Positions 22,061 to 37,631 of a stretch of DNA of 64,000 bases are shown here, in pieces (positions within the stretch are counted from its first letter, which is position 1; each line of letters starts with the position of its first letter). Below the pieces are notes generated by a model. That model did no database searches. It was not told where the DNA came from and saw only the letters and a program-made list of their open reading frames with translations. This DNA is from Ensifer aridi (GTDB taxonomy: Bacteria; Pseudomonadota; Alphaproteobacteria; Rhizobiales; Rhizobiaceae): contig NZ_LUAV01000038.1 in the NCBI RefSeq assembly GCF_002078505.1, positions 310,001 through 374,000 of the forward strand. The letters are read 5' to 3'. The position numbers were made by a program, and so were the translations under genes.

Positions 22061-22540
22061 TTACTCTTTAACGGTTGCGGTGACCGCCTCGATGACCTGC
22101 GATGCCATGGCGAATTGGCGCTCCCGACTCGAAATTCGATGCCGCTTTGCGATCCAGCCGAAGTCGGTGTAGGCGGCGTAGACGGATCCGTCCTTCGCCT
22201 GATAGACGAGGACCCGGACGGGCCAGTCGAGTCCGGCGAGAGGATTGGCGGTGATAAAAGTCGTGCCGAGTGCCGGATTGCCGAACATCACCAGGCGCGA
22301 CGGACGCACCTCGTTGCCAGCGGCGTTGCCGAGCTTGGCCTGGTCGATGACGCCGAAGAGGGTGATCCCCTTATCCTCGACGCTGCGCTTGATGCGGTCC
22401 ACTGTCTCGCTCACCGAATAGCGGCTCTTGACCGTGACGATGCCGTCCCTGTCTGCCGCTTCAGCCATCGAAACTTGAGCCAGTGCCGTCATTGTGGTGA
22501 GCAAGGCTGCCGATAGTATCGCATTGCTGATCTTCATCAT
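22061..22540 (-). CDS. Exported DUF302-domain protein
   Basis: 159 residues. A signal peptide (ISNAILSAALLTTMTALAQV, cleavage near residue 29) leads into one DUF302 domain: TVDRIKRSVEDKGITLFGVI, the conserved LVMFGNP and a C-terminal polar helix. DUF302 proteins are small alpha/beta proteins of uncertain role, often near redox or metal genes. GGAG lies 7 nt before the ATG at 22540. The gene is 36 nt after the MFS gene and is probably the third gene of the cupin-MFS-DUF302 unit. Confidence 0.85.
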   Translation of the reverse strand: MMKISNAILSAALLTTMTALAQVSMAEAADRDGIVTVKSRYSVSETVDRIKRSVEDKGITLFGVIDQAKLGNAAGNEVRPSRLVMFGNPALGTTFITANPLAGLDWPVRVLVYQAKDGSVYAAYTDFGWIAKRHRISSRERQFAMASQVIEAVTATVKE

Positions 22541-22576: not shown

Positions 22577-23839
22577 TCAAGGATGCGGCTCGCCATCGCG
22601 ATTTGATAATGCCGTCTCTTGTCCATTTCGATAACCGGACCTCATGGCGCGCAGCGGCACGGCAAAGAACATGGCGAGCACCACCATTGCGACGAGCATC
22701 AGCACTGAAGTGCTCCATCCGAAACGATCGTAGATCTGGCCGATCACCAGGCTGCCGAAGAGCCCGCCCGTGTAATAGGAGGCGAGGTAGGCGCCGCTTG
22801 CTGTTGCCTTCTCCGTCTCGGCGATGTGGCCGACCTGGCTGGTTGCAAGCGCCTGCGCGAGAAACGTGCCGACGGCGACCATGGCGAGGCCGGCAAGCAC
22901 AACGGCGAGGCTACTGCTCAGAAGGGCGACGAGCCCGAGCGCAGCGCATAGGAGCGTCAGCACAATGCCGGCCCCGGCGCCGAGGCGACGCGCGATATAC
23001 CCGCCGAGCGGCGTCGTGAACAGCGATGGCAGGAATACCAGATAGACGAGGCCGAGCTGCATCGGCGACAGCCCGAGCTCGACCAGCCGGAAGTTGACAT
23101 AAGTGAATGTCCCTATGAAGACGAAGAGGATCAGGAAGCCGATGGCGAGCACGCTCTGCAGGCGTCGATTGCCGAGCACCGAGCGCCAGTTTCCGCTCCT
23201 GCTTCGCCTGGCCCGGTCCGACATCATGCGTTCCGTCCGCTTCAACGTGGTCCAGACGAGGGCCGCGCCCGCCAGGTTGAGCAACGCGAAAGTCTGGAAG
23301 TTGATGGACAATCCGCCGAGGTCGGCAACTGCCGCCGAGAGAATGCGACCGAAGAGGTTGCTCGCGACATTGCCGGTGACATAGGCCGCAAGCGCGCCCG
23401 TGGCCCGCTCGGCTGGGAAACGCTCCGAAAGATAGGCCATGGTGAGCGTGAAGGCGGTCGCCATGCACAGGCCCTGCGCCACGCGCAGGCCGGCAAAGGT
23501 CGCAATCTCCCGGGTCGTCGAGAGCAACACGGTCGGCACGGCAAGCAGTGCGAGACTGATCCAGATGCCGTTTCGCCGATCCAGGTTGCGCCCGAAGATA
23601 CCGACGGCAAGACCAGCGGCCGCCATGCCGAAGGTGCTGGCATTGACCGCGAGGCCCATTGTAGCGCGGCTCACCCCGAACTCTCGCTGCAGCGATGGCA
23701 GGATCGCCTGGGCGGCGAAGAGGTCGACGAGGGTCAGGAATGCGATGAGCGCAATGATGCCGAAATGCCAGCGGTCGGCTACGGGGTTTGCCAGAACGGA
23801 GATGGACGCCGGCGGCGAGGCATGGTCGAGGTTCGCCAT
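22577..23839 (-). CDS. MFS transporter (DHA1, YnfM-like)
   Basis: 420 residues and twelve membrane segments. The first helix has ALIAFLTLVDLFAAQAILPS, and GIFGRNLDRRNGIW is the loop 2-3 signature. It resembles YnfM-type exporters that take over from cupin/quinone-type stress genes only by context. The ATG at 23839 follows AGGAGGACAAGCG; an upstream frame extension has no ribosome site. It lies between a cupin gene and a DUF302 gene on the same strand. Confidence 0.88.
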   Translation of the reverse strand: MANLDHASPPASISVLANPVADRWHFGIIALIAFLTLVDLFAAQAILPSLQREFGVSRATMGLAVNASTFGMAAAGLAVGIFGRNLDRRNGIWISLALLAVPTVLLSTTREIATFAGLRVAQGLCMATAFTLTMAYLSERFPAERATGALAAYVTGNVASNLFGRILSAAVADLGGLSINFQTFALLNLAGAALVWTTLKRTERMMSDRARRSRSGNWRSVLGNRRLQSVLAIGFLILFVFIGTFTYVNFRLVELGLSPMQLGLVYLVFLPSLFTTPLGGYIARRLGAGAGIVLTLLCAALGLVALLSSSLAVVLAGLAMVAVGTFLAQALATSQVGHIAETEKATASGAYLASYYTGGLFGSLVIGQIYDRFGWSTSVLMLVAMVVLAMFFAVPLRAMRSGYRNGQETALSNRDGEPHP

Positions 23840-23921: not shown

Positions 23922-24413
23922 TCACATGGCGTGATCGTCTTTCGACATCGGCGGCAGGATATCGGCCGAGTAGAGCACGGCCGGCTTGGAGCCGTTGTTC
24001 TTCCACCAGTGGGCAAGCTCGCCGAACTCGGCGGTGACTTCGCCCGCCTTGTGCTCGATCGGAACCTTGCAGTTGCTGCGATATTCGGTGATCGTGCCTT
24101 CGAGGATCAGGATGTTGGCGGGACGTGCTTCATGCGAATGCCACGGCACGACGCCGCCCGGCTGGACGACGAGCTTGCGAAAACGCAGCGCGCTTCCTTT
24201 CCAGTCGCCGCCCCTGGAGGAGAGATCGATCGAGGCGAGGACGTCATCGGTGACGCCGTCCGGTGCGGTTGCGCCCGGCGCCATGGCGCCTGCCGCCACC
24301 TGATCGGCCGGGCATTCCCCGGCAAGAGCGGGCACGGTGGCCAAGGTGGAGGCAAAAAGGCCGAGCGTTGCAAGGGCGAGCGGCAGGCGGCCCGCAGTGA
24401 ACTTCTGAGGCAT
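23922..24413 (-). CDS. Exported cupin-domain protein
   Basis: 163 residues. A signal peptide (LPLALATLGLFASTLATVPA) is followed by a short linker with one Cys and a cupin barrel: VVPWHSHEARPANILILEG (two metal-ligand His and the Glu-Gly turn) and the second motif GELAHWWKNNGSKPA. It is probably periplasmic, and the substrate is unknown. AAGGAG lies before the ATG at 24413. It heads the cupin-MFS-DUF302 unit, whose upstream region has a perfect LysR-type palindrome. Confidence 0.85.
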   Translation of the reverse strand: MPQKFTAGRLPLALATLGLFASTLATVPALAGECPADQVAAGAMAPGATAPDGVTDDVLASIDLSSRGGDWKGSALRFRKLVVQPGGVVPWHSHEARPANILILEGTITEYRSNCKVPIEHKAGEVTAEFGELAHWWKNNGSKPAVLYSADILPPMSKDDHAM

Positions 24414-24514
24414 GTCGGGTTCTCCTTCGTCGGTAACGCCGGAGAAATTCCGGCGGCACAAGGAGATTGCGGGAGATTCCGCCGACAAAGAAATGCCGCC
24501 TGCTTTTGAATTCC

Positions 24515-24529
24515 ATAGCTCAGAGCTAT
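24515..24529. promoter_or_regulatory. Candidate LysR-type operator (ATAGCTC-A-GAGCTAT)
   Basis: A perfect 15-bp palindrome containing T-N11-A, about 100 bp upstream of the cupin start. The flanking GAATTCcATAGC also occurs, with one base less, in the region before the SDR gene at 25785-25795. A LysR gene lies between the two. Confidence 0.55.
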
Positions 24530-24696: not shown

Positions 24697-25608
24697 TCAG
24701 GCTATGCGCCGCATGTCTATTCCTGAATGCGGGGCGGCCCAGCCATAGGATTTCACGGCGCTGACGAATGTCGCCATGGCGGGCGAAAACCGCCTGCCGG
24801 CGACGGTCACGAGACAGACCTCCCGGCTCACTTCCGGATCGGTGACGGGACGCACCTGGAGGCCCGGGATCACGGCGCTGTATTCGGGCAGGAAGCAGAT
24901 GCCGAGGCCGCCGGCGACCATGTTCTGGATCCAGTCCTCCCGCTCGCTCGAATAGGAATCCTGGGTGCGCACTCCGCAGGCATCGCAGACATCGGAAAGA
25001 TAGTCGTTGAATTCGCAGTTGACCCGCCTGAGATAGACTTCGCCGTCGATAGCCGAGATGGGGATTGCCTCATACTGGCTCAAGCGGTGCCCGGCTGGGA
25101 AGGCCAGCATGAACCGCTCGCGAAACAGCGGCGTGACATCGAAACGCTCGGGGAACTGGTCGCTGCTTGCCATGATCGCCACATCGATCTCGCCTGCCTC
25201 CAGCAGTTCGGAAAGACCGAGAGGCACGCCTTCGACGAGCTGAAGCTGAATGCCGCGATGACGCATGTTGAAGTCGGTGAGCAGGCCGGTGAAACGGCGC
25301 GGTCCGATGGTGCACATGATGCCGACCTTCACATGCGCATCCTCGAGACAAAGAAAGCGCGACGCCTCCTGCCGGACGCCCGACAACTCGTCGACGATCG
25401 ACTGGAAGCGCGGCCTCAGCAGGTTTCCGAGGTCGGTCAGATGAGTGAGGTTGCGCTCGCGCCGGAACAACAGGCCGCCGACCTCGTCCTCGAGTTGCTG
25501 GATTGCGCGGCTCAATGCCGGCTGCGTTACATTGCATTTCTCGGCGGCGCGCGTGAAGTTGCGCGTTTCGCAGACCGCCAGGAAATAGCGAACGTGGTGA
25601 ATGTCCAT
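24697..25608 (-). CDS. LysR-family transcriptional regulator
   Basis: 303 residues. The N-terminal winged helix (FTRAAEKCNVTQPALSRAIQ, residues 18-37) is followed by a linker helix and a periplasmic-binding-protein-like effector domain. It is divergent from the SDR/patatin pair at 25881 and upstream of the cupin unit, and both neighbouring promoters have T-N11-A palindromes. Its natural targets are therefore probably both units. The effector is unknown. Confidence 0.9.
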   Translation of the reverse strand: MDIHHVRYFLAVCETRNFTRAAEKCNVTQPALSRAIQQLEDEVGGLLFRRERNLTHLTDLGNLLRPRFQSIVDELSGVRQEASRFLCLEDAHVKVGIMCTIGPRRFTGLLTDFNMRHRGIQLQLVEGVPLGLSELLEAGEIDVAIMASSDQFPERFDVTPLFRERFMLAFPAGHRLSQYEAIPISAIDGEVYLRRVNCEFNDYLSDVCDACGVRTQDSYSSEREDWIQNMVAGGLGICFLPEYSAVIPGLQVRPVTDPEVSREVCLVTVAGRRFSPAMATFVSAVKSYGWAAPHSGIDMRRIA

Positions 25609-25647: not shown

Positions 25648-25795
25648 GATCGGATCCGATCTAGAAATCAATCATTTCAAAGTGCTATAGAGACCCACCA
25701 TGGGTCCTGGCCGACGCGCAGCGCCGAAGTCGAGGCGATGAACTTCCTATGTGCGCGCCGCCTTCGCCAATGCAATTCACCTATCGAATTCATAG
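25648..25795. promoter_or_regulatory. Divergent LysR/SDR promoter region with palindromes
   Basis: A perfect 14-bp palindrome GATCGGATCCGATC lies at 25648-25661. A partial mosaic repeat (TTTCAAAGTGCTATAGAG) starts near 25673. CTAT-cgaattc-ATAG (25781-25795) has T-N11-A geometry and shares GAATTC-ATAGC with the cupin upstream site. Any of these could be the LysR operator; the last is the best candidate. Confidence 0.45.
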
Positions 25796-25880
25796 CACAG
25801 TGGCATTTCAGTTGAAATGAATAGAGCGCCATTCTCTTCCCGGAAAAGGCCCTTCGGCCCAAACGTGAGGAGACGCGGAC

Positions 25881-26711
25881 ATGCTCAAAAGTACCGACGC
25901 TGAAATCGACGCGATGTTCGGACGCAGGGCGCTCGAGGGGCGCAGCGCCATCGTCACCGGTTCCACCAGCGGCATTGGTCTCGGCATCGCCCAGGCGCTG
26001 GCCAAGGCGGGCGCGGCAGTGATGCTCAACGGTTTTGGCGATCCGGCCGAAATCGAGCGGCAGCGGGCCGAAATGGCGGATGAGAACGACGTCGACGTCG
26101 CCTATGACAGCGCCGACATGTCGAGCCCGGAGGCGATCCGGATGATGGTCGAGCGCGCCGGCGCCCGCTTCGGACAGATCGACATCGTCGTGAACAATGC
26201 GGGAATCCAGTATGTTGCGCCGATCGCCGAATTCCCTGAGGCCAAATGGGACGCGATCCTCGGCATCAATCTTTCTGCTGCGTTTCACCTCGTTCGGGCG
26301 ACCTACGGGCAGATGCGCGCTCGCGGTTACGGACGCGTCATCAACGTCGCCTCGGCTCACGGTCTCGTCGCCTCGCCCTTCAAGTCCGCTTACGTGGCCG
26401 CCAAACATGGGCTTGTCGGGCTCACCAAGGTCGTGGCGCTCGAAGGCGCGGAATTCGGCATTACGGCCAATGCGATCTGCCCGGGCTATGTCTGGACGCC
26501 GCTGGTGGAGGCGCAGATCGACGGCCAGGCCAAGTCGCGCGGGATCGCCCGCGACGCGGTTATCCGCGACGTGTTCCTGAAGAACCAGCCGACCAAGCGC
26601 TTCGCGACGGTCGAGGAGATGGGGGCGCTAAGCGTCTTCCTGTGCAGCAGCGCGGCCGCTTCGATCACCGGCGCGGCCATTCCCGTCGATGGCGGGTGGA
26701 CGGCCCATTGA
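25881..26711 (+). CDS. SDR oxidoreductase, 3-hydroxybutyrate dehydrogenase-like
   Basis: 276 residues. The NAD-binding motif TGSTSGIGLGIA (about 28-39), NNAGIQYVAPIAEFP, the catalytic Ser region NVASAHGL and YVAAKHG (Tyr-x3-Lys) are all present. NNAGIQ-x-VAPI and ICPGYVWTPLV are characteristic of D-3-hydroxybutyrate dehydrogenases. The N-terminus is about 15 residues longer than in classical BdhA. It would oxidise 3-hydroxybutyrate to acetoacetate in polyhydroxybutyrate turnover. GAGGAG precedes the ATG, and a patatin gene follows after 17 nt. Confidence 0.85.
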   Translation: MLKSTDAEIDAMFGRRALEGRSAIVTGSTSGIGLGIAQALAKAGAAVMLNGFGDPAEIERQRAEMADENDVDVAYDSADMSSPEAIRMMVERAGARFGQIDIVVNNAGIQYVAPIAEFPEAKWDAILGINLSAAFHLVRATYGQMRARGYGRVINVASAHGLVASPFKSAYVAAKHGLVGLTKVVALEGAEFGITANAICPGYVWTPLVEAQIDGQAKSRGIARDAVIRDVFLKNQPTKRFATVEEMGALSVFLCSSAAASITGAAIPVDGGWTAH

Positions 26712-26728: not shown

Positions 26729-27814
26729 ATGAACAAGCACACCCACATGGGCCAGCCGGTGCCCGAGCACCAGGTGCGGCGCTCCGGGGCCGACATGCGT
26801 CCGCCGCGAACGATAAACCTCGCGCTTCAGGGCGGCGGTGCGCACGGCGCATTCACCTGGGGCGTGCTTGACCGGCTGCTCGACGAGGCGAACCTTTCCT
26901 TCGAAGGCATCGTTGCGACCAGTGCCGGCGCGATGAACGCCGCCGTCCTGGCCTATGGGCTTGCGGAGGGCGGACGCAGCGGCGCGCAAAGGGCTCTCGC
27001 CAATTTCTGGCGCCGCATCAGCCATGCGGCAGCCTTCGGTCCGCTGCAGCCGAGTTTGCTCGACCGCCTGACCGGGTCGAAATCCTTGGAGTATTCGCCG
27101 GCCTTCGTCGTCTTCGACATGGTGACGCGGCTGCTATCGCCCTACCAGTTCAACCCATTGAACTACAATCCGCTGCGCCAGGTCCTGGAACAATCGATCG
27201 ATCTCGATGCGATCCGCATGTCCCGTTGTCCCGTGAAGCTGAACATCTGCGCCACCAACGTGCGCTCCGGCAAGGTCAAGGTGTTTTCCAATGACGAGAT
27301 CTCGATCGACGCCGTAATGGCCTCGGCCTGCCTGCCTTTCCTGTTTCAGGCTGTCGAGATCGACGGTGAGGCCTATTGGGACGGAGGCTACATGGGGAAC
27401 CCCGCCATTTTCCCGCTGATCTATGGCTGCGACACGCCGGATGTGCTGGTGGTGCATATCAATCCGCTGGAGCGAACTGAACTGCCGCGCACTGCGGCCG
27501 AAATCCTCAACAGGATCAACGAAATCAGCTTCAACTCGTCTCTATTGAGGGAGATGCGGGCAATCGCCTTCGTGACGCACCTGATCGATTCCGAGGCCGG
27601 CAATTCTCTTGGCCTCAAACGCATCTTCGTACATGGCATCTCCGACGACGAGACGATGAGAAACCTCAGCGTCTCGAGCAAGCTCAATGCCGAGTGGGGA
27701 GCCCTCGTAGACCTCCGTGACCGCGGTCGACAGTGCGCGGAGGACTGGCTGATGGCGAACTATGACGCGATAGGGAAGCGTTCGAGCGTCGATATCAGTA
27801 CGCGTTACCTTTAG
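26729..27814 (+). CDS. Patatin-like phospholipase/acyl hydrolase
   Basis: 361 residues. The oxyanion loop [11 protein letters not shown] (about residues 36-46), the nucleophile elbow ATSAGA (Ser about 66; the first residue is Ala instead of Gly) and the catalytic Asp in DGGYMGNP (about 215) form the Ser-Asp dyad. There is no signal peptide, so it is cytoplasmic. Linkage to a 3-hydroxybutyrate dehydrogenase suggests a role in polyhydroxybutyrate granule or lipid turnover; this is inference. GAGAGGAGC lies before the ATG. A strong terminator follows. Confidence 0.88.
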
Positions 27815-27900: not shown

Positions 27901-27945
27901 GCCCCCCGATACGGCCCGATCGGCCCGACTCCGGGGGGCTTTTTT
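27901..27945 (+). terminator. Rho-independent terminator after the patatin gene
   Basis: GCCCCCCG (27901-27908) pairs with CGGGGGGC (27932-27939), with a smaller GGCCCGATCGGCCC-type stem inside, followed by six T (27940-27945). It separates the patatin unit from the bufferin operon. Confidence 0.85.
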
Positions 27946-28092
27946 CGTCTCAGGTGCACCCGTCGCCGGCGGATAGTTCGGCCTATCGAAACCATGCCTG
28001 AACAGCATTTCAAAGAGCGCGAGCGGTCTGCGAAGCTTGTCAGTATCAGGCCGATACCCGGTCTGAACAACGTCAGATCCAGGAGATGTTCA

Positions 28093-28362
28093 ATGATCAA
28101 CACTCGTACGCTCATCAGTTCGGCGCTTGCCGCGATCGCCTCCGTCTCGGCGTCGACCGCATCGGCAGGACCGGCCGCCCAGCCCGAGTTCTCGTTCGAG
28201 AAGTGCTACGGCATCGTCAAGGCCGGGCAGAACGACTGCCAGACAGCCACCCATTCCTGCGCGGGCACCTCGACGATGGACGACCAGGCCGACGCCTGGA
28301 TCTACGTGCCTGCCGGCACCTGCGGAAAGATCGCCGGCGGCAGCAACGCCCCCAAGGCCTGA
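28093..28362 (+). CDS. bufA1: DUF2282 bufferin-type precursor peptide (BufA1 family)
   Basis: 89 residues: a Sec signal peptide ([15 protein letters not shown], cleavage near residue 25) and a mature part with four Cys at 38, 49, 56 and 77 in [21 protein letters not shown] and PAGTCGK. This is the DUF2282/BufA1 pattern. In Caulobacter such precursors have Cys residues converted to thiooxazoles by an MNIO enzyme and bind copper in the periplasm. The next genes are the matching MNIO enzyme and DUF2063 partner, so the same maturation is likely. AGGAG lies 7 nt before the ATG. Confidence 0.9.
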
Positions 28363-28397
28363 CGGCCTCCAACTACAAGCGAAAAGGGAGTAGACCG

Positions 28398-29429
28398 ATG
28401 CCCAAGACGTTTCCAACCCACCCGGTGCCGTGCGCTGCGGGCATCGGCCTCCGTTCGATACACATTGCCGAGATGCTTTCCCGCAGGCCCGCTGCGGGTT
28501 GGCTGGAAGTCCATGCCGAAAACTACATGGGCCAATCAGCGGCCGTGAAGGCGCTCGAGAAGCTGCGCGAGGTTTATCCGCTTTCGGTGCACGGCGTCGG
28601 ACTGTCGCTCGGCAGCGCCTCAGGTCTCGACCGAGCGCATCTGGAGCGGCTGCGTCTCGTCTGTGAGCGCTTCCAGCCGGCGATCGTCTCGGAGCACCTT
28701 GCCTGGAGCGTCGCCGACGGCGCCTACCTCAACGACCTCCTGCCGCTCCGTTACGACGACGAGGCGCTCGCCATCGTTTCCGGGAACATCGGCCGGCTGC
28801 AGGACACGCTCAAGCGTCAGGTCTTCATCGAAAACCTCTCCGCCTATCTGGCCTTCGCGGAATCGAGCATGACCGAGGCCGAGTTCCTGAGCGAGCTCGT
28901 CAACCGGACCGGTTGCGGCTTGCTGCTGGACGTCAACAACGTCCATGTCTCCGCAAGCAACCTCGACTACGATGCATTGGCCTTCATCGACGCTCTGCCT
29001 GCCGAAGCGATCGGCGAAATCCACCTTGCCGGCCACGCAGTCAACGAAGTCGACGGCGACGTCATTCTCATCGACGACCATGGGTCGCGCGTGCCGCCGG
29101 CCGTCTGGTCGCTGTATGCCCACGCTCTCCGCAGGATCGGCCCGCGACCGACACTGATCGAATGGGACACGGATGTGCCGCCGCTCGAGGTCTTGTTGGG
29201 CGAAGCCATGTGGGCGGACATGCTCGCCCGCAGTATCGCCTTCGACGAGCGCCCGGAGGAGCCGCCGGTCACCGTGCCGGACAGCCGTTTCGAGACCATG
29301 AAGCTGCCCGGCCGCGACGACACAAGTGGCATTCGTTTCCCGGCGCTTGCCGCAATCGCGGCAGTCAAAGCCGCTTGCGGCAAGTGCGCAGCGGACCATT
29401 GCAGGAGGGACGGCCATGTCCTCCATTGA
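28398..29429 (+). CDS. bufB: MNIO (DUF692) multinuclear non-haem iron peptide-modifying enzyme, BufB-like
   Basis: 343 residues. The TIM-barrel metal ligands of the family can be seen in order: HAENY (about 40), VHGVGLSLG (about 65), SEHLAWS (about 95), ENLSAYL (about 150), LLLDVNNVHVSA (about 180), EIHLAGH (about 215), DDHGS and LIEWD. These enzymes oxidise Cys in ribosomal peptides. The protein is about 50 residues longer than usual and ends in a Cys/His-rich tail (ACGKCAADHCRRDGH), whose role is unknown. It starts 35 nt after the precursor gene. Confidence 0.92.
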   Translation: MPKTFPTHPVPCAAGIGLRSIHIAEMLSRRPAAGWLEVHAENYMGQSAAVKALEKLREVYPLSVHGVGLSLGSASGLDRAHLERLRLVCERFQPAIVSEHLAWSVADGAYLNDLLPLRYDDEALAIVSGNIGRLQDTLKRQVFIENLSAYLAFAESSMTEAEFLSELVNRTGCGLLLDVNNVHVSASNLDYDALAFIDALPAEAIGEIHLAGHAVNEVDGDVILIDDHGSRVPPAVWSLYAHALRRIGPRPTLIEWDTDVPPLEVLLGEAMWADMLARSIAFDERPEEPPVTVPDSRFETMKLPGRDDTSGIRFPALAAIAAVKAACGKCAADHCRRDGHVLH

Positions 29430-30216
29430 AACCCTGCAGAGCGTGGTCGCGCGTGCGGTTCTGACGACCGGGCCCGCAGATGTCCTGCCGCTCCTCGAGC
29501 GGGGTCGTTTCGATCCCGCAAGGCGGCTCAATATCTACCGCAACAATACGCTGGTCTCGCTCACGACGACATTGAAGGCCGTGTTTCCCGTGACGGTGCG
29601 GCTGCTCGACGAGCGCTACTTCAGTTATGTGGCCGGCTGCTTCATCCGCAACAGCCCGCCACAAGAGCCGCGCCTTTCACATTACGGCGCAGGATTTGCG
29701 CCATTCCTCGCGCGCTTCGAGGGAACCGCCGACATGCCATTCGTTTCCGAGGTGGCGCGCCTGGAGTGGAAGATCGCCGAAGCGCTCGACGCGCCGCTGG
29801 AGCGGCCAAGCACACTAATCGAGCTCTACGAGGGGCTTTCGAGCGGGTCCTTCGCGCTCTTCCTACAGCCTTCGCTGCGACTTGTTCTGTGCCGCTGGCC
29901 CGCCCTCAGCATATGGGCGGCGCACCAGCAGGGAGGCGATCCCGAAAGGCTCGCCCATCTCAAACGCGAACCGGAGCGCGTCGCGCTGTGGAGACATGCC
30001 GACACCGTTCGCTTCCTGCGCCTCGACGCCGCGGAGTTTGCGTTCTGGCACATGTTGATGCGGGGCAGCGGACTCGAGGCTGCGGTCGCTCGCGCCTGCC
30101 GCCATTCGCCTGAGTTCGATATCGCTCGAGCGCTGACGGGCCTTTTCGTCAGCGAGCTCGTCATCGGCATCCATCGCATGAAGGGGTCTTCCAACCAGCA
30201 GGAGAGAGTGTCATGA
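29416..30216 (+). CDS. bufC: DUF2063 protein, MNIO partner (BufC-like)
   Basis: 266 residues. The N-terminal DUF2063 domain is marked by RLNIYRNNTLVSLTTTLKAV and the segment FPVTVRLLDERYFSYVAGCF, typical of partners that present the precursor to MNIO enzymes. The C-terminal domain carries HMLMRGSGLEAAV. The gene overlaps bufB by 14 nt, indicating translational coupling and complex formation. Confidence 0.9.
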   Translation: MSSIETLQSVVARAVLTTGPADVLPLLERGRFDPARRLNIYRNNTLVSLTTTLKAVFPVTVRLLDERYFSYVAGCFIRNSPPQEPRLSHYGAGFAPFLARFEGTADMPFVSEVARLEWKIAEALDAPLERPSTLIELYEGLSSGSFALFLQPSLRLVLCRWPALSIWAAHQQGGDPERLAHLKREPERVALWRHADTVRFLRLDAAEFAFWHMLMRGSGLEAAVARACRHSPEFDIARALTGLFVSELVIGIHRMKGSSNQQERVS

Positions 30217-30686
30217 CCACAATGCGCGCAACACCGATCAGTATTCCCAGAACGATATACAGGCTCCACCACACTGTCGTGGAGTGGGCGACCGCCCTGC
30301 CGCTATCGATCGTGCAATTGGCGTCCCGCGTGGCGATCGCGGAGGTTTTCTGGCAATCCGCCCAGACGAAGCTCGCATCCTGGCCGGTAACGCTCCAGCT
30401 GTTCGCCTTCGAATATCGCGTGCCGCTGCTCGATCCCGAACTGGCCGCCGTCATGGCGACGACGGCGGAACTCAGTGGCGCGGCGATGCTCGCCCTGGGA
30501 CTGCTCGCGCGGCTCGCGTCGCTGATGCTGCTCGGCGTCGTCGCCACCATCCAGATCTTCGTCTACCCGGATCATTGGGTCGAGCATCTGATGTGGACGA
30601 GCCTGCTCCTGCTCATCCTGTCGCGCGGCGCCGGAGTCATTTCCGTCGATCATCTGGTCGCCCGACGCATCCGTGCCGGAGGCTGA
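30213..30686 (+). CDS. DoxX-family membrane protein of the bufferin operon
   Basis: 157 residues with four membrane segments. The DoxX pattern RVAIAEVFWQSAQTKLASWP in helix 1 and the loop TAELSGAAMLALGLLARLAS in the middle are evident. DoxX genes regularly close bufferin-type operons; the function is unresolved, perhaps electron transfer or membrane redox control. It overlaps bufC by 4 nt (ATGA). Confidence 0.88.
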   Translation: MTTMRATPISIPRTIYRLHHTVVEWATALPLSIVQLASRVAIAEVFWQSAQTKLASWPVTLQLFAFEYRVPLLDPELAAVMATTAELSGAAMLALGLLARLASLMLLGVVATIQIFVYPDHWVEHLMWTSLLLLILSRGAGVISVDHLVARRIRAGG

Positions 30687-30689
30687 GCA

Positions 30690-32006
30690 ATGCCGGTGAC
30701 GCCTGTTCAGAGCGGCTCCGCGCCGGGCAAGATCGCGGCCGGCGCGGAGCAGACAAGGCACCGGCCGCGCGTGGTCATTCTCGGTGCGGGCTTCGGCGGC
30801 CTGAACGCGGCATTGGCGCTTCGCCGCGCGCCGGTCGAAGTCACCGTCATCGACCGACGAAACTATCACCTGTTCCAGCCTCTGCTTTATCAGGTGGCGA
30901 CCGCGGGGCTCTCACCGGCGCAGATTGCCATGCCCATCCGCCGCATTCTTTCGCGGCAGTCGAATGCCACGGTCCTGATGGACAAGATCGAGGCGGTCGA
31001 TACCGCCGCGCGATGCGTCGTGACCGGCAGCCGGCGCATCCCCTATGACTACCTGATCGTCGCGACCGGCGCCCGCCACACTTATTTCGGCAACGATACT
31101 TGGGCGGACCACGCCCCGGGCCTGAAGACAATCACGGATGCGACGGCGATCCGCGCGCGTATCCTCTCCGCCTTCGAACGGGCGGAGGTGACCGATGAGC
31201 CGCATCTGCGTCAGGCGCTCTTGACCTTCGTTGTCGTCGGCGGCGGGCCGACCGGTGTCGAACTGGCCGGCGCCATCGCCGAGCTCTCGCGAAGGACGAT
31301 CGTCCGTGATTTCCGGCGCATCGATTCGTCCTCCGCCCGGGTCGTGCTCGTCGAGGCGGGTGAGCGGATACTGCCGGCGATGCCGCCCTGCCTTTCGAGG
31401 AAAGCCCAGAGACAACTCGAAAGGCTTGGCGTCGAGGTCCTGCTCGGCAATGCGGTCGCCGGCTGCGACGACAGCGGAGTGCGGCTGGCCGACGGAACTG
31501 AAATCGGCTCCGCCTGCATTCTCTGGGCCGCAGGCGTCATGGCTTCGCGCGCCGCCAAGTGGATCGGCGCGCCGGCCGACCGTGCCGGACGGGTCCTGGT
31601 CGACGGGTGTCTAAATCCGCCGGGGCACGAGGAAATATTCGTCATCGGTGACACGGCCTCGGTGACCGATGCGGCCGGACGTCCTGTACCCGGCGTGGCG
31701 CCGGCAGCCAAGCAGATGGGTCGCTACGCGGCGCGCGCCATTCTCGACGACGTGGCGGGACGGCAATCGGCGCCCTTCCGTTACCGCGACTACGGCAATC
31801 TCGCGACCATCGGCCGCAAGGCAGCGGTTGCGGATTTCGGCAAGGCCAGGCTCTCCGGCTATCCCGCATGGCTCGTCTGGAACTTCGCCCATCTCTGGTT
31901 CCTCGTCGGCTTCCGTAATCGCCTCGTGGTCTTTCTCGACTGGGCGGTCGCCTACGTCCGCAACGATCGCGCCGCGCGGCTGATCACCGGCCGACACGAG
32001 GCCTAG
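30690..32006 (+). CDS. ndh: Type II NADH dehydrogenase-like FAD oxidoreductase
   Basis: 438 residues. The FAD-binding motif is VVILGAGFGGLNAALAL (about 28-44) and the NADH motif VVVGGGPTGVELAGAIAEL (about 178-196). NYHLFQPLLYQVATAGLSP and FVIGDTASV are NDH-2 signatures, and the hydrophobic C-terminus (WNFAHLWFLVGF) should anchor it peripherally to the inner membrane. It would pass electrons from NADH to quinone without pumping. It lies 3 nt after the DoxX gene, a coupling that suggests redox support for the bufferin pathway. Confidence 0.88.
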   Translation: MPVTPVQSGSAPGKIAAGAEQTRHRPRVVILGAGFGGLNAALALRRAPVEVTVIDRRNYHLFQPLLYQVATAGLSPAQIAMPIRRILSRQSNATVLMDKIEAVDTAARCVVTGSRRIPYDYLIVATGARHTYFGNDTWADHAPGLKTITDATAIRARILSAFERAEVTDEPHLRQALLTFVVVGGGPTGVELAGAIAELSRRTIVRDFRRIDSSSARVVLVEAGERILPAMPPCLSRKAQRQLERLGVEVLLGNAVAGCDDSGVRLADGTEIGSACILWAAGVMASRAAKWIGAPADRAGRVLVDGCLNPPGHEEIFVIGDTASVTDAAGRPVPGVAPAAKQMGRYAARAILDDVAGRQSAPFRYRDYGNLATIGRKAAVADFGKARLSGYPAWLVWNFAHLWFLVGFRNRLVVFLDWAVAYVRNDRAARLITGRHEA

Positions 32007-32008
32007 CG

Positions 32009-33931
32009 ATGTATCGCCCGAAGCTCGCCCAGGTCATCATCGTCATCCTCATGCTGGCGGTGCTCTCCACCGCCGCGTTGATCCATCTCATCTGGCAGCG
32101 CGCAGCCGGCGAGAACATCGAGGAGATCGTCGCCAGTCTCGATGCCCAGACGGCGGGATCCGTCAGGAACGACCTGTCCCGAACGCTGGCGCTCGTGACG
32201 AGCACCGCCGAAGTTGTCCGCTCCATCTTCTTCCAGGGTGCGATCGGCGCCGATGACGAGGTCAAGCGCGAGTTCCTGTTCCTGTCGCTGCTGCGCGAGC
32301 AGCCGGCGATCGCCTGGATCGGCTTCGGCTTTCCGGACGGGCGCTTTTTCGGATCGCATGCGACCGCCGACGGTCGGATCGAAATGGTCGAAATCGGCGC
32401 TGCGAAAGCCGGCGAGCTCCGTCCGCTGCGGCGCGATCTCTACCGGCCGATCCCGGGCGACATCTTTTTCGAGGAGCGCATCAAGGCGGAGAGCGCCTAT
32501 GTGGCACTCGGCGCCCCCTGGTATCGATTGGGCAAGGAAACCGGAGAGCCCGTCTGGACGGTCACCAATGTGCTGCCGAACGGTTTCGAGCCGGCCATAG
32601 TGCTGTCGAAGCGTGTCGTGACTTTCGGGAAGTTTACCGGCGTGGTGATGGTGGCCGTGAGCCTCCGGCGCCTTTCCGAGGCGCTGCAGGCGCTCGAACT
32701 ACCAGCGCTCGGCAAAGCCTTCGTTCTTGACGAGCGCGGGCGGGTGCTTGCGACGTCGCAACCCTCCGACGGCGTGATGGCGGCGCATTTTTCCGACTTT
32801 CCGGCCTCCGATGCCGTGGCGACGGCCGCCGCCGAGGCCGTTGCGACGAATAAGGTCGACGCCTTCCGCGCCGTAGTGCTAAACGCTTCGCTAGGCCCCG
32901 TCTTCGTGTCGTCGTCGCGCTTGCCATTCGAGAACTGGCGCCTTGTTACCGCCACCCCGCGCTCGACCTTCGCAAGCGGTATCGACAAGAATATCCGGCG
33001 CATAGCCATAGTCGTGCTCGCCATGGCCGCGCTTGCCGCAGCAACTGCCGTCGGTTTTGCAAATTTTCTCTTCGCCCGGCCGCTCGCCCGGCTGGCGGAG
33101 CAATTGCGTGCGGTCGAGCGCTTCTCTCTGGAAAGCATCCGCCATCACCCGACCTTTCTCGCCGAGCTCAACGACTTGTCTCAGGCGTTGAAGCGGATGG
33201 CGGTCGGGCTTTCGGCCTTCGCCCGCTATATGCCGCTCGACGTCGTGCGACCGCTGGTCGAGGGTGGCATCGAGCCGAAGCCCGGCGGCTCGCTCTGCGA
33301 AGTGACGGTCATGTTCGCCGACCTGCCGGGTTTCACCGAGCTGACGGAAAGGCTCGGGCCTGGCGTCGAGCCGCATCTGACGCGTTTCCTGACGATTGCC
33401 GTTACCGCGATTCACGCCGAGGGAGGCACCGTCGACAAGTTCATCGGGGATGCCGTTATGGCGATCTGGAACGCGCCGGGCAAACAGGCGGATCATGCAG
33501 CCCGCGCCTGCCGCGCGGCTGTCGCGATCCGGACGGCAATGCATGACGAGCCGCCAATTGCGGCCGGCGAGAATGCGATCCGCGTGCGCATCGGTATTAA
33601 CAGCGGCACGGCGCTGATCGGCAATATCGGCTCCGCCGAGCGGCTGAGCTACACCGCCATCGGCGACACGGTCAATCTCGCGAGCCGGCTGGTGAATGTG
33701 GCCAAGGAGCGCGGCGTCGAAATCGTGCTCAGCGATGCAACGATGCGGGAACTCGGGGCAGAGCCGATGACGAGACCGCTCGGGCTTACGGCCGTCCGCG
33801 GCAAGGCCAGGCCCGTCGGCGTGCATACGATTGACCAGCTAAACGCTCGATCCGCGGGAGGAAGCGATGGAAATGGCGATTACGACGGTGGCGATGCTCG
33901 CTTGCATGCAGCTCAAGCACTTCGTCGCTGA
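32009..33931 (+). CDS. Membrane-bound class III adenylate/guanylate cyclase
   Basis: 640 residues. One N-terminal membrane helix (residues 7-27), an extracytoplasmic sensor of Cache-like size (about 28-325), a second helix (AIVVLAMAALAAATAVGFAN, about 332-351), a HAMP-like linker and a C-terminal cyclase domain (about 425-610). Both metal-binding Asp are present, in FADLPGF (about 437) and GDAVMAIW (about 480). It probably makes cAMP in response to a periplasmic signal. It starts 2 nt after the ndh stop, so the sensor is cotranscribed with the bufferin genes. Confidence 0.88.
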   Translation: MYRPKLAQVIIVILMLAVLSTAALIHLIWQRAAGENIEEIVASLDAQTAGSVRNDLSRTLALVTSTAEVVRSIFFQGAIGADDEVKREFLFLSLLREQPAIAWIGFGFPDGRFFGSHATADGRIEMVEIGAAKAGELRPLRRDLYRPIPGDIFFEERIKAESAYVALGAPWYRLGKETGEPVWTVTNVLPNGFEPAIVLSKRVVTFGKFTGVVMVAVSLRRLSEALQALELPALGKAFVLDERGRVLATSQPSDGVMAAHFSDFPASDAVATAAAEAVATNKVDAFRAVVLNASLGPVFVSSSRLPFENWRLVTATPRSTFASGIDKNIRRIAIVVLAMAALAAATAVGFANFLFARPLARLAEQLRAVERFSLESIRHHPTFLAELNDLSQALKRMAVGLSAFARYMPLDVVRPLVEGGIEPKPGGSLCEVTVMFADLPGFTELTERLGPGVEPHLTRFLTIAVTAIHAEGGTVDKFIGDAVMAIWNAPGKQADHAARACRAAVAIRTAMHDEPPIAAGENAIRVRIGINSGTALIGNIGSAERLSYTAIGDTVNLASRLVNVAKERGVEIVLSDATMRELGAEPMTRPLGLTAVRGKARPVGVHTIDQLNARSAGGSDGNGDYDGGDARLHAAQALRR

Positions 33932-34244
33932 TTATGTGCTGCAGCCTGCCTGGATCCTGCGCGGCAAAGGAAATTTCCGCATGATCGGCGGCTATGTCCA
34001 TGCCGGCGGGCACGCGCTCGGAACCCTGCCGGCACTGATGCTCGCCGGCGCTGGAATGACGCGCGTCGCCATTCTCGTGCTCGCCGAATTCGTAGCGCAC
34101 TATCTCATCGACTATGGCAAGGCACTGCTGTCGCGGCATAGCCGCGCCGATGCGACGACCCGGACCTACTGGGCGATGCACGGAGCCGATCAATTGATGC
34201 ACCAGCTCACCTATGCGGCGCTGATCCTTGCCGCACTGGCGTAG
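33867..34244 (+). CDS. DUF3307 membrane protein
   Basis: 125 residues with about four hydrophobic segments. LKHFVADYVLQPAWI at the N-terminus and EFVAHYLIDYGKALL in the third quarter are the DUF3307 motifs, and a DQLMH follows near the C-terminus. The function is unknown. GGAGGAAGCG precedes the ATG. The gene overlaps the cyclase gene by 65 nt in another frame, an unusually long overlap for this operon. Confidence 0.85.
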   Translation: MEMAITTVAMLACMQLKHFVADYVLQPAWILRGKGNFRMIGGYVHAGGHALGTLPALMLAGAGMTRVAILVLAEFVAHYLIDYGKALLSRHSRADATTRTYWAMHGADQLMHQLTYAALILAALA

Positions 34245-34583: not shown

Positions 34584-37500
34584 ATGGCTACCGGGGGAAC
34601 ACAAGCACAAGTTGGTGCACTTTCGGGAGAGCGCAGGCAGGTGACCGCGCTCTTCTACGACGTAGTTGGCTCAACTGCCTTGTTGCAACAACTCGATCCC
34701 GAAGTCTTCGGTGTCGTGTTGCGGACCCTCCACAATGAGGCGAGCGCCCTCATCAGCAGCTATGGCGGTCACCTTGAGCGAGCTCAAGGAGATGGCGGCT
34801 GTGCCTACTTTGGGGTCCCGGAGGCGAGGGAGGACGCCGCCGAATGTGCGGTTGCGGCGGCGATTGAGGTGGTTGAACGCTGCCAGCGGCTGGCACAACA
34901 GTTCGGAGTGAGTCTGAAGGTCAGAGTTGGCGTCGCCACCAGCCTTGTCGTAATTGCCGACGGCTCGACGGCAGATTTTCCGAGCTACACAGAAGTCATC
35001 GGAATCGCGCCGGCGCTCGCTGCCCGCATTCAGTCCGAAGCTGCACCGAATACCGTTGCGGTGGCGGAAGCCACTTATCGGCTGACCACGGGAGTGTTCG
35101 AATTTGAGGAGATCGGGGTTCGGGAGCTCAAGGGCTTCGTCGAACCAGTTCGCTTGTGGCGGCCAGTGGCCCGCCGGCCGCAATCCGATCGCTTCACGGC
35201 CTACCGGCGTGTGTCGACGCCCTTCGTCGGCCGCGACGACGAGCTTGAGCTTTGCCGAAGGCGCTGGGCCCGTGCCATAAACGGCAACGGCCAGCTCATT
35301 TTTTTGCATGGCGACGCAGGGATGGGCAAATCGCGGCTGGTTGCGGAGTTCCGTCGTGATCTCGCAGGGAGAGGCGTGGACTGCCTTGTGTTTCAGTGTC
35401 AACCTCGCGGCAATACTGAACCGCTGCATCCGTTTCTGCGGCCGATCAGGCAGGCCGCCGCGGAGGCCACCGGAGAGTCCGAGCCGGATCGGGATGCCGT
35501 CATTCGCTTTCTGCGGTCGCTCGGCTCCGAAGTTAGCGAGCTGCACGCCGAGATCGTCGCGTTCCTGCTGGTCGACAAGCCGCAGGAACTTTCAAGCGAA
35601 GCCTGGCAAGTCGATCTCTCGGACCAGGAGATCCGGAGGCGCGCTGTCGAGGCCACGCTGGCGGTTCTGACATCGTACTCCGCAACAAGACCAGTCCTCA
35701 TCGTGATCGAGGACGTGCATTGGGCTGACACGCTCACAAAAGCCCTTATCGCCGGGCTGGCCGAATGGATCGAGTCGAGACCGGTTCTTGCCATTGCAAC
35801 GTCGCGTTTGGCCACCGACTCTGACTGTCTGGGTGATCCGAACGTGCTCGACATTGCGTTGCCGCGGCTTACAGATCAAGCGACCTCGCAGCTGGTCGGC
35901 CGAATTTGGGAGACGACGCCTCCGGATGGGCTCGCTGCCTTTGTCTACGAGAAGAGCGACGGTGTCCCACTCTTCGCCGAACAGCTCGCGCTGCTGCTGA
36001 AGGAACGCGCCGGGCCAGACGTTCGGGATCAGGCCGGATGGGAAACGCTGCTTCGCGAGGGCCGCATTCTCAATCTGCAAGACCTTATCGCAGCCCGTCT
36101 TGCTGGCCTGGGACGGCTGAGGCGCGTGGCGCAGATCGCAAGTGTCATCGGGCGGGAGTTCCGACTGAAGCTCCTCGTCGCCGTATTGGAACCTGAGCCT
36201 CTTCCTGTTCCCCTAGATGAAGCGATCGAGACGCTCGCCCAGGCCGGGATCGTGCGTCGAACTTCCGCGGGCGCGGCGATCCGATTTCGTCACGTCCTCA
36301 TTCAGGAGGCGGCCTACGACAGTCTCCTGAAGTCCGAGCGGCGGGAAATACACCGACGCATTGTGCGCCTTGTACAGTCGGACTCAGTTCCGCCTCTGCC
36401 CGATGAGGCGATGGCATGGCATTGCGAACAGGCCGGTGAGCCGCTCGCGGCGGCGCGCCACGCAATTCAGGCGGCGGAGGCGTGCGGCGCTCGCTCTGCC
36501 CTGCACGAGGCCGACCGCCTGTTGGATTTCGCCGAGAAGCAGCTGGCGGGAGTTGGAGAGGGTGGCGAGGCGAACGATCTGCTGCTTCGCCTGCTCGCGG
36601 TGCGCGGACCGGTTGCTGCCGCGCTCCACGGGAGGGGAGGGGCGCGAGCGCGCTCGATCTATGAGCATGGAGTGTGGCTTTGCGCGGAACGCAAGAATCA
36701 GGATCGCGCGAAATGGTTTCCGCTCTATTGGGGCTGGTGGTTCACTGCCCCGGACTTCGCGACGCAGCGAGTGCGGTCGGACATCCTTTTGCGCGACCTT
36801 GAGGGCTCGGCCGATCCGGAGGTCCGGCTCCAGTCCCTCCATTGCGCATGGGCCACGAACGAAGATGCCGGACTGCACGTACACTGTTTGCAGTGCGTCG
36901 AGGAGGGTTTGAAGCTCTATGACGAGGACCGAGCCCGATTCAGCCGCGGTCGCTACGGTGGCCATGATGCGAAGGTCTGCGCACTGGGCGAACGAGCCTT
37001 CTCTCTTTGGTTCATGGGCGACAACGCCGGATCGTCGGAGAGTATCGACGCGGCGAAGCAGTGGGCTGAGCACATCAATCATCTCCCCAGCGTGCTTCAT
37101 GCGCTGGAGTTCGAGATCGAGCTGGAACGATATCGCAATGATCATGCGGGCGTTATCGCGGTCGCTGACAGGATCGCTGAGCTCGCGCAGGACGTGCCGG
37201 GCGTGGTTGCAAAGGCGGCGCTTTTTCGGGCTTGGGCGCACGGCATGAGCGGGGATGCAGCCGCCGGCTTGGCAGAATTCGAAGCCGGGCTGGCGCGCCA
37301 GCGGGAAATCGCCACGTCTGAAGGCATGCCCATCTATGCGGGCATGCGTGCAGAGCTGTTCGAGCGTGCGGGACGCAACGACGAAGCCCTGTCAATCCTC
37401 GACGGCGCAATCGCGGCCTCGACCGGGAGTGGGCAGGTTTTCTGGCTAGCGGAGTTGCTTCGCCAGCGGGCTCTCCTTCGGCATGCACGCCACGAACCGG

Positions 37501-37631
37501 AGGAAGCTGTTGCGTCGGACCTTCACCGCGCGCTCGAAGTCGCCACCGAACAGCAAGCCTCGACGCTTGCTTCGCGTGTGCGCCTGGATCTGGAGCGGCT
37601 CGGGCTTCGCGCTCAGACCGGGGATGCATGA
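34584..37631 (+). CDS. Cyclase-domain/AAA ATPase/TPR signalling protein of the YcaO cluster
   Basis: 1015 residues. A class III cyclase homology domain (about 15-190) begins with ERRQVTALFYDVVGSTALLQ and contains GDGGCAYFG, so both metal Asp appear present. FVGRDDELELCRRRW opens an STAND/AAA-type ATPase, with Walker A GDAGMGKS near 244 and Walker B VLIVIEDVHWAD near 375. The C-terminal 400 residues are TPR-like helical repeats. No DNA-binding domain is visible. Such proteins are signal-integrating regulators. The stop overlaps the YcaO start (ATGA), so it belongs to the cluster. The ATG at 34584 is preferred to a TTG at 34569. Confidence 0.85.
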   Translation: MATGGTQAQVGALSGERRQVTALFYDVVGSTALLQQLDPEVFGVVLRTLHNEASALISSYGGHLERAQGDGGCAYFGVPEAREDAAECAVAAAIEVVERCQRLAQQFGVSLKVRVGVATSLVVIADGSTADFPSYTEVIGIAPALAARIQSEAAPNTVAVAEATYRLTTGVFEFEEIGVRELKGFVEPVRLWRPVARRPQSDRFTAYRRVSTPFVGRDDELELCRRRWARAINGNGQLIFLHGDAGMGKSRLVAEFRRDLAGRGVDCLVFQCQPRGNTEPLHPFLRPIRQAAAEATGESEPDRDAVIRFLRSLGSEVSELHAEIVAFLLVDKPQELSSEAWQVDLSDQEIRRRAVEATLAVLTSYSATRPVLIVIEDVHWADTLTKALIAGLAEWIESRPVLAIATSRLATDSDCLGDPNVLDIALPRLTDQATSQLVGRIWETTPPDGLAAFVYEKSDGVPLFAEQLALLLKERAGPDVRDQAGWETLLREGRILNLQDLIAARLAGLGRLRRVAQIASVIGREFRLKLLVAVLEPEPLPVPLDEAIETLAQAGIVRRTSAGAAIRFRHVLIQEAAYDSLLKSERREIHRRIVRLVQSDSVPPLPDEAMAWHCEQAGEPLAAARHAIQAAEACGARSALHEADRLLDFAEKQLAGVGEGGEANDLLLRLLAVRGPVAAALHGRGGARARSIYEHGVWLCAERKNQDRAKWFPLYWGWWFTAPDFATQRVRSDILLRDLEGSADPEVRLQSLHCAWATNEDAGLHVHCLQCVEEGLKLYDEDRARFSRGRYGGHDAKVCALGERAFSLWFMGDNAGSSESIDAAKQWAEHINHLPSVLHALEFEIELERYRNDHAGVIAVADRIAELAQDVPGVVAKAALFRAWAHGMSGDAAAGLAEFEAGLARQREIATSEGMPIYAGMRAELFERAGRNDEALSILDGAIAASTGSGQVFWLAELLRQRALLRHARHEPEEAVASDLHRALEVATEQQASTLASRVRLDLERLGLRAQTGDA

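Follow-up and report, generated by a model that had tools for sequence, protein, structure and literature searches.

Bufferins are a recently recognized family of copper-binding peptides, and a survey of the clusters that encode them (PMC12452194) gives their core as a precursor, an MNIO enzyme, a DUF2063 protein and DoxX and describes further genes as conserved "in extremely low proportions". The Buf1 operons CC3254–CC3257 of Caulobacter (PMC3511200) and SMb20530–20527 of Sinorhizobium meliloti (PMC6180224) are four-gene units under extracytoplasmic function (ECF) sigma factors, sigma-F and RpoE7, respectively. The locus described here lies in Ensifer aridi, in a 64,000-nt stretch of contig NZ_LUAV01000038.1 (positions 310,001–374,000; hereafter the window). 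It is like both operons in precursor, MNIO, DUF2063 protein and gene order, and DoxX is fourth in Caulobacter also, but here the core is followed by genes for an NDH-2-type NADH dehydrogenase (ndh), a membrane class III nucleotide cyclase (cyc) and a DUF3307 protein, and the unit is linked to a LysR-type gene. We read it as the seven-gene arm of a LysR regulon whose mechanism would join DoxX, NDH-2 and the cyclase, and put the probability of this reading at roughly 55%.

What appears to be new is the extension of a bufferin operon by a respiratory NADH enzyme and a second-messenger enzyme under LysR linkage; the bufferin core itself is known. Since oxidored_molybd and ferric reductase genes accompany a few related EGKCG/oxazolin clusters (PMC12452194), a redox neighbor as such is not unheard of. 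The main text of the same survey, in the parts available, has no NADH, oxidoreductase, DUF3307, LysR or quinone. Our literature search, outside which many subscription papers lie, returned no report of a bufferin together with an NADH dehydrogenase and an MNIO, and none linking any three of DUF302, patatin, LysR and 3-hydroxybutyrate dehydrogenase. A broader search, covering titles and the first parts of abstracts among the matches listed, gave no such arrangement and no fusions of DoxX to NDH-2.

An earlier description of the same DNA, made from its letters alone (the sequence-only reading), had proposed a copper-buffering operon extended by these three genes and had stated that described bufferin operons end near DoxX, in agreement with the survey core. 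Its gene identities, order and coordinates were borne out by Pfam and NCBIfam profiles (Table 1), as were the gaps of 3 nt between doxX and ndh and 2 nt between ndh and cyc and the overlap of cyc with the DUF3307 gene (65 nt); bufB and bufC overlap by 14 nt, and bufC and doxX by 4 nt. The extension of the operon is confirmed, and it is conserved and subject to purifying selection; the proposed copper stimulus needs modification, as a shared motif points to LysR-type control. The locus has the sequence features of a Buf1 cluster, namely an MNIO BufB, a DUF2063 partner, DoxX and a DUF2282 precursor with four conserved cysteines (Cys 38, 49, 56 and 77, invariant in 12 of 12 aligned sequences). 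The bufC and doxX products scored below the NCBIfam HvfC and HvfX equivalog cut-offs, though above those of Pfam, and the signal peptide of BufA1 was called by eye, its N-terminus lying below the hydropathy cut-off. Residues 24–433 of the 438 in the ndh product match PDB entry 9mqy, "NADH:ubiquinone reductase (non-electrogenic)", with E 1.2e-107; by its domains and this near full-length match, ndh is assigned as encoding an NDH-2.

Terminator-like matches between 27600 and 34800 were at chance level (5 against 4.8 in shuffled sequences), and a scan of the same interval for sigma-70-like promoters, the one promoter type covered, gave none. The junction between doxX and ndh folds no more stably than shuffles (z 0.38), and a terminator or promoter at this point, which the sequence-only reading had named as the feature that would speak against it, was searched for and none was detected. 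Upstream, the patatin gene ends at 27814 and is followed by an intrinsic terminator. With this terminator and no recognizable break downstream of it, the unit would begin past the terminator and continue through ndh, cyc and the DUF3307 gene; a terminator-like hairpin with a T run is present in most of the aligned upstream regions, though not in all (it is missing in L055 and L057, for example). Across all 35 loci compared, doxX and ndh are spaced by −62 to +33 nt, and in all 34 readable loci ndh and cyc are spaced by −59 to +40 nt, with starts chosen by script; because the tight spacing is kept in all of them it is not due to chance. On sequence grounds, bufA1 to DUF3307 form a genuine seven-gene unit that would be transcribed as one. 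The neighborhood that belongs with it reaches upstream to about 22.06 kb, farther than had been described.

Table 1. Features of the bufferin unit and the neighboring LysR island, in window coordinates
Feature	Position	Strand	Description and evidence
DUF302 gene	22061–22540	−	PF03625; signal peptide by eye only
MFS gene	22577–23839	−	Major facilitator superfamily (MFS) transporter; PF07690
Motif before DUF302	22606–22633	−	Degenerate fourth copy, 12/14
Cupin gene	23922–24413	−	Cupin with hydrophobic N-terminal segment; PF07883
Motif before cupin–MFS	24490–24517	−	Exact copy
lysR	24697–25608	−	LysR-type, proposed regulator of the island; HTH_1 and LysR_substrate
Motif before SDR–patatin	25782–25809	+	Exact copy
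SDR gene	25881–26711	+	Short-chain dehydrogenase/reductase (SDR), 3-hydroxybutyrate dehydrogenase type; TIGR01963 358 vs 307 bits
Patatin gene	26729–27814	+	Patatin-like phospholipase; Pfam PF01734
Intrinsic terminator, patatin/bufA1	27901–27945	+	−25.2 kcal/mol, z −2.25, then T6
Motif before bufA1	27984–28011	+	TATCGAA-N14-GCATTTC; includes dyad ATGC-N7-GCAT
bufA1 leader hairpin	28046–28066	+	Ahead of Shine-Dalgarno; z −4.46 for 28040–28070
bufA1	28093–28362	+	DUF2282 bufferin precursor; Pfam PF10048, E 1.7e-25
bufB	28398–29429	+	MNIO (DUF692) maturase; NCBIfam MNIO_BufB 362 bits vs cut-off 310; PDB 3bww, E 1.5e-37
bufC	29416–30216	+	DUF2063 partner protein (PME-type 1); Pfam PF09836, 65.3 vs 27.2 bits
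doxX	30213–30686	+	Pfam PF07681, 49.1 vs 23.6
ndh	30690–32006	+	NDH-2; Pyr_redox_2 and NDH2_C above Pfam cut-offs
cyc	32009–33931	+	Membrane class III nucleotide cyclase; Guanylate_cyc 70.6 vs 21.9
DUF3307 gene	33867–34244	+	Helical, probably membrane protein; Pfam PF11750

Comparison of gene order in other rhizobia, which the sequence-only reading had proposed as a check, found order and spacing conserved. A cyc query matched 23 of 120 related genomes, consisting of 21 of the 33 genomes sampled from the genus (the present one included) and two distant ones. The genus copies keep the order doxX-ndh-cyc-DUF3307 as far as their contigs allow, with bufA1-bufB-bufC upstream; in G027 the operon is divided between two contigs. 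A wider sample of the family gave a cyc match in 15 of 394 genomes, with an identity of at least 57% in 12, and the six of these 12 that fall outside the genus have the same bufC-doxX-ndh-cyc order, with bufA1-bufB present wherever the contig reaches; DUF3307 follows in three of the six, and two contigs end too early. All seven genes are found on Rhizobium plasmids, annotated records including R. etli IE4803, R. sophoriradicis, R. lentis and R. bangladeshense, and plasmids of S. fredii NGR234 and S. meliloti GR4 carry the operon by DNA match; it occurs in Sinorhizobium, Rhizobium and Mesorhizobium. A scan of genome contigs gave at least 77 loci with a cyc relative, at least 19 of which have cyc with ndh, doxX and bufferin genes; one of those listed ends at a contig edge within ndh, and three hold partial cyclases without bufferin. 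The ratio of nonsynonymous to synonymous substitution (dN/dS) was 0.04–0.36 in pairwise comparisons with an amino-acid change (seven genome pairs; six for patatin and DUF3307) and well below 1 for all genes, and all seven genes are under purifying selection. In L060 (G016) and L061 (G011), bufA1 to ndh are 92–100% identical to the window, cyc 81% and DUF3307 75–76%, a pattern that suggests recombination with a breakpoint near the ndh–cyc junction. The bufB of L061 is in two overlapping frames (residues 1–123 and 122–343), the result of a frameshift or an assembly error.

Alignment of the regions upstream of bufA1 contained one nearly invariant element, the bipartite motif of Table 1. Its core was present in 45 of 45 upstream regions scanned (19 distinct sites), matching at 14/14 positions in 40 and at 13/14 in 5, and lies about 80 nt upstream of bufA1, the distance being mostly 77–86 nt across loci. 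This set leaves out L066 and L096, which have no bufA1, and loci mostly repeating a strain, and it holds four strains twice (L087/L058, L098/L053, L099/L067 and L101/L052). A position weight matrix was built from the bufA1 sites of the 45 loci, 19 of them distinct. With L056 and L091 excluded, whose stretches lack lysR/SDR or cupin, each of the 43 loci that have both genes has its second- or third-ranking site, of all positions in the locus, between lysR and SDR; the scores of this site were 3–21 bits, low (3–5 bits) in a few loci, with the internal spacing the same. The next-best site was before the cupin gene in most loci, and the motif preceded cupin in all 43 loci that have it (14/14 in 38, 13/14 in 5), at 69–93 nt from the start codon.

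In the 6.6-Mb genome, the pattern TATSGAA-N14-GCATTTC matches exactly at three places and no more, ahead of the cupin gene, SDR and bufA1; the backward motif, used as a control, had no match even at one mismatch. A one-mismatch match to the motif itself lies at C14:129034. For 13 operon-bearing genomes of the genus, every exact match among those listed is at this locus, and five fully listed genomes of the genus that lack the operon (G002, G007, G008, G012 and G018) have none; one of the nine genomes listed from other families (G079) has a single exact match. These counts omit G074, G078, G083, G009 and part of G005. The LysR protein (E≤1e-85) is encoded in 22 of 33 genus genomes, which are the 21 operon carriers plus G009, a fragmented assembly with a piece of bufB, and a 50% relative is found in one genome of another genus. 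In the family sample, this LysR reaches an identity of at least 75% in 14 of 394 genomes, which are the 12 that carry cyc together with G168 and G389; G168 has no SDR–patatin between lysR and bufA1 and has two motif copies there. LysR proteins of about 45–50% identity in G064, G169, G284 and G381, together with a second one in G143, have no adjoining bufferin, and in their loci no match to the motif reaches 13/14. In G017, where the blocks are rearranged, all three exact sites are retained with lysR and bufA1 about 12 kb apart, and the co-occurrence with LysR holds there and in G029, which is rearranged as well. Because the other exact copies flank the LysR gene and precede cupin–MFS and SDR–patatin, the bufferin operon is probably one unit of a LysR regulon with these two, and for this reason its stimulus may not be copper. 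The protein is not an OxyR (114 bits against the NCBIfam cut-off of 329, with a cysteine at 198 and not 199); Cys 198 itself is kept in 11 of 11 sequences.

Further evidence for the pairing of DoxX with NDH-2 comes from other families. A plasmid of Azospirillum brasilense encodes a single 697-residue protein (WP_137143213.1) composed of DoxX, Pyr_redox_2 and NDH2_C, uniting in one polypeptide what the adjacent doxX and ndh genes encode here; no more than two records of the plasmid collection match most of it, and both are from A. brasilense. A search of 385 alphaproteobacterial genomes with this protein gave matches in 42 at E≤1e-125. The three domains occur together in 8 of the 10 proteins scanned, from seven families (the 10 come from 12 loci returned, L250 and L253 being left out). 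Eighteen loci were fetched, the query selecting for ndh and not for its neighbors; 10 have a fusion open reading frame (ORF) and five have bufferin genes. Arrangements include bufA1-bufB-bufC-doxX followed by a DoxX-DoxX-NDH-2 fusion (G665), the like order with one fused DoxX (G491), bufA1-fusion-SDR-patatin (G834), bufA1-x-doxX-ndh-bufB-bufC adjoining patatin-SDR, lysR and a cyc relative (G503), and bufA1-doxX-ndh beside bufB-bufC, lysR-cupin-MFS and SDR-patatin (G745). Relatives of cyc (38–41%) adjoin lysR in three loci, G503, G834 and G757. A search for the motif in 25 loci of other families (17 of the 18 fetched plus 8 others, mostly controls; L262 was left out) gave 13 matches at 12/14 or better, nine of them within 150 nt upstream of a same-strand gene of the module, and five Markov-shuffled sets gave 0, 3, 2, 1 and 5 matches in all. 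A perfect copy lies about 57–84 nt before the fusion gene of G558, depending on the start. For ndh relatives on plasmids of Shinella, Paracoccus, Sphingomonas and Eleftheria and on Tistrella pTM3, no bufferin or doxX match was found within 6 kb.

The cyclase has hydrophobic segments at residues 1–30 and 328–356 by hydropathy, which probably bracket a periplasmic dCache-like sensor; PctA is a weak match (E 9.4e-5). Residues Asp 438, Lys 477, Asp 481, Thr 549, Asn 556 and Arg 560 are invariant in 24 of 24 sequences, and we take these to be the two metal-binding aspartates (438 and 481), the lysine and threonine that recognize adenine (477 and 549) and the transition-state asparagine and arginine (556 and 560), with Thr 549 presumably marking the class IIIb type. 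As read from the alignment, the class III catalytic set is complete, and among solved structures the nearest in sequence are those of bacterial adenylate cyclases. The DUF3307 protein has ten residues invariant in 25 sequences (His 18, Asp 22, His 45, His 49, Glu 74, His 78, Asp 82, His 105, Asp 108 and His 112). Its AlphaFold2 (AF2) model consists of long helices with a mean pLDDT (predicted local distance difference test) of 87, a fold search gave no PDB match at E≤0.001, and segment 53–77 is the only one above the hydropathy cut-off. Past DUF3307, after 340 nt, begins a gene for another class III cyclase, this one joined to an AAA ATPase (34584–37631; TIGR03903, 321 vs 706 bits). Among 20 relatives compared in the genus this gene is found only in G001, and L271 has a 34% relative close to its bufferin genes. 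In L070 (G290) and L071 (G143), 38% relatives of the cyclase share a stretch with other bufferin genes, without the LysR motif.

Between the motif and bufA1, the leader hairpin is shared by several genera, and its 21 distinct copies include one compensatory G-C/A-U pair; the pattern used presupposes a hairpin, and L058, L067, L068, L080 and L089 did not fit it. Translational control of bufA1 by this hairpin is possible.

RclA of Escherichia coli is not known to be an NDH-2. As a precedent, the rclABC genes (PMC7527725) link this flavin enzyme, which oxidizes NADH and has Cu(II)-reductase activity, with small predicted periplasmic and inner-membrane proteins in resistance to HOCl; it differs in having the regulator RclR and no enzymes for ribosomally synthesized and post-translationally modified peptides (RiPPs), and the likeness, drawn by description, is an analogy of design only. 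The S. meliloti CyaC (PMC10463352), a membrane cyclase of this group, reads the redox state of the quinone pool by means of heme and an Fe-S cluster, whereas the cyclase described here has a dCache-like domain. E. coli NDH-2 itself is reported to reduce Cu(II) and is likely important for growth under copper (PMC3817396).

Under the mechanism that we propose, an oxidant, metal or metabolite signal would act on LysR, which would bind TATSGAA-N14-GCATTTC and turn on the bufferin unit together with SDR–patatin and cupin–MFS, perhaps with DUF302. BufB and BufC would convert cysteines of BufA1 into 5-thiooxazoles, and the exported peptide would be a ligand for copper or another thiophilic metal. In the membrane, DoxX would join NDH-2 in a single unit that carries electrons from NADH, part of it supplied by the 3-hydroxybutyrate dehydrogenase, to quinone; this route would sustain respiration under stress, and the quinol could reduce Cu(II) to Cu(I) for capture by a thiol ligand. 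Through its dCache-like domain, the cyclase would sense a signal in the periplasm and give cyclic AMP (cAMP) as output; the DUF3307 protein would be an accessory in the membrane, perhaps metal-binding. The coupling to copper, the inducer of LysR and the cAMP output are parts that we infer. More tentatively, and with the odds rather against it, the locus may represent an alphaproteobacterial LysR regulon found across the class, in which a RiPP metallophore is served by a dedicated DoxX–NDH-2 unit for electron transfer (supplying Cu(I), for instance, or electrons for peptide chemistry) and the cyclase reports the state of the system as cAMP.

A number of observations weigh against the LysR-controlled DoxX–NDH-2–cyclase unit. 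Seven of the 10 fusion ORFs are in stretches without a detected bufferin gene, so the doxX–ndh link is not specific to bufferins; likewise, 13 of the 18 fetched ndh loci have no bufferin gene in the stretch examined, and neither do 54 distant cyc relatives (27–47% in the best segment) among the at least 77 listed. Four of the 13 motif matches in other families are not before a module gene. The dCache_1 match is below its Pfam cut-off (35.8 vs 45 bits), and an OxyR-type disulfide switch in LysR is unsupported because Cys 208 is lost in 7 of 10 more distant LysR proteins. Copper reduction by NDH-2 has been judged unspecific and quinol-dependent (PMC7558416). In G291 no DUF3307 gene was detected past cyc although the contig continues, G168 has no cyc among the matches listed, and in G389 LysR, the motif and bufABC-doxX are kept but ndh-cyc-DUF3307 is missing after doxX, so ndh-cyc-DUF3307 is not universal downstream in LysR/bufferin loci. 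G389 has a 32% Pyr_redox_2 relative after another SDR–patatin pair. A flavodoxin-like gene next to its doxX was rejected as a replacement for ndh, being a 106-residue ORF that matches only the start of the profile. The state of G389 is what passive growth of the operon would leave, with ndh, cyc and DUF3307 co-transcribed by read-through and functionally unrelated to the bufferin, but this is improbable given the order and spacing conserved in Sinorhizobium, Rhizobium and Mesorhizobium, the independent occurrence in other families of bufferin-doxX-ndh arrangements and of DoxX::NDH-2 fusions, and the cyc relatives beside lysR in three loci there. Still less probable is a separate ndh-cyc-DUF3307 unit with a promoter inside doxX, considering the 3-nt gap, the lack of an exact motif copy within the operon and the lack of a match to the one promoter type scanned.

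The motif could also be the −35/−10 pair of a dedicated sigma factor or the site of another regulator, with LysR a mere neighbor. Its bipartite form, fixed 14-nt spacer and fairly constant distance from the start (69–93 nt for cupin, mostly 77–86 for bufA1) would suit a promoter. LysR boxes have an AT-N11-AT dyad, and this is present in two of the four copies and nearly so in one; together with the co-occurrence of LysR and motif in the genomes listed and the absence of a sigma gene among the island genes scanned, this makes either alternative unlikely. A stronger rival, though still a doubtful one, keeps LysR and removes copper: the island would answer a lipid, storage-carbon or electrophile signal, with SDR and patatin mobilizing 3-hydroxybutyrate or lipid, NDH-2 burning the NADH and the bufferin recruited as a thiol/redox peptide. 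It draws on the motif shared by the bufferin unit with SDR–patatin and cupin–MFS, on the SDR score above the 3-hydroxybutyrate dehydrogenase cut-off, and on G696 and G757, which combine lysR, SDR, patatin and ndh with no bufferin gene in the stretches covered (12.9 and 7 kb). In addition, a scan of the genes between 22.06 and 37.6 kb found neither an ECF sigma factor nor NrsF, yet the genome has a second, sigma-linked bufferin locus. Set against it are the typical Buf1 character of BufA1 and BufB and the reported improvement of growth under copper stress by bufferins (PMC12452194).

The second bufferin locus of the genome (L028, contig C12) is of the canonical type, with an ECF sigma factor and NrsF, as in Caulobacter (PMC3511200); these genes accompany Buf1 clusters without being obligatory. 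Contig C12 also carries a second, housekeeping-like NDH-2 gene (the coordinates for this pairing are L028 2256–3524 and 7741–10345). In 20 genomes of the genus such a gene follows the other bufB, on its strand, at a distance of 4.8–6.8 kb; in G028 the distance is 9.3 kb. This gene and the canonical locus do not form one operon, as they are separated by other genes over about 4 kb, in part on the opposite strand. In L248, on the Azotobacter plasmid pAcX50e, a canonical bufferin operon is followed by an ECF sigma gene, zf-HC2 and msrP, which would tie bufferins there to methionine-sulfoxide repair.

The role of DoxX in bufferin clusters is described as unresolved (PMC12668002), and the class-wide regulon, if real, would provide its first defined partner. 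Together, the fusions and the shared motif make several points open to experiment, namely the docking of NDH-2 by DoxX, the need for NDH-2 in bufferin function and the signal to which LysR responds. Since some bufferins would be placed in a regulon with storage-carbon and lipid enzymes and not under metal-stress sigma control, copper may not be the sole job of these bufferins.

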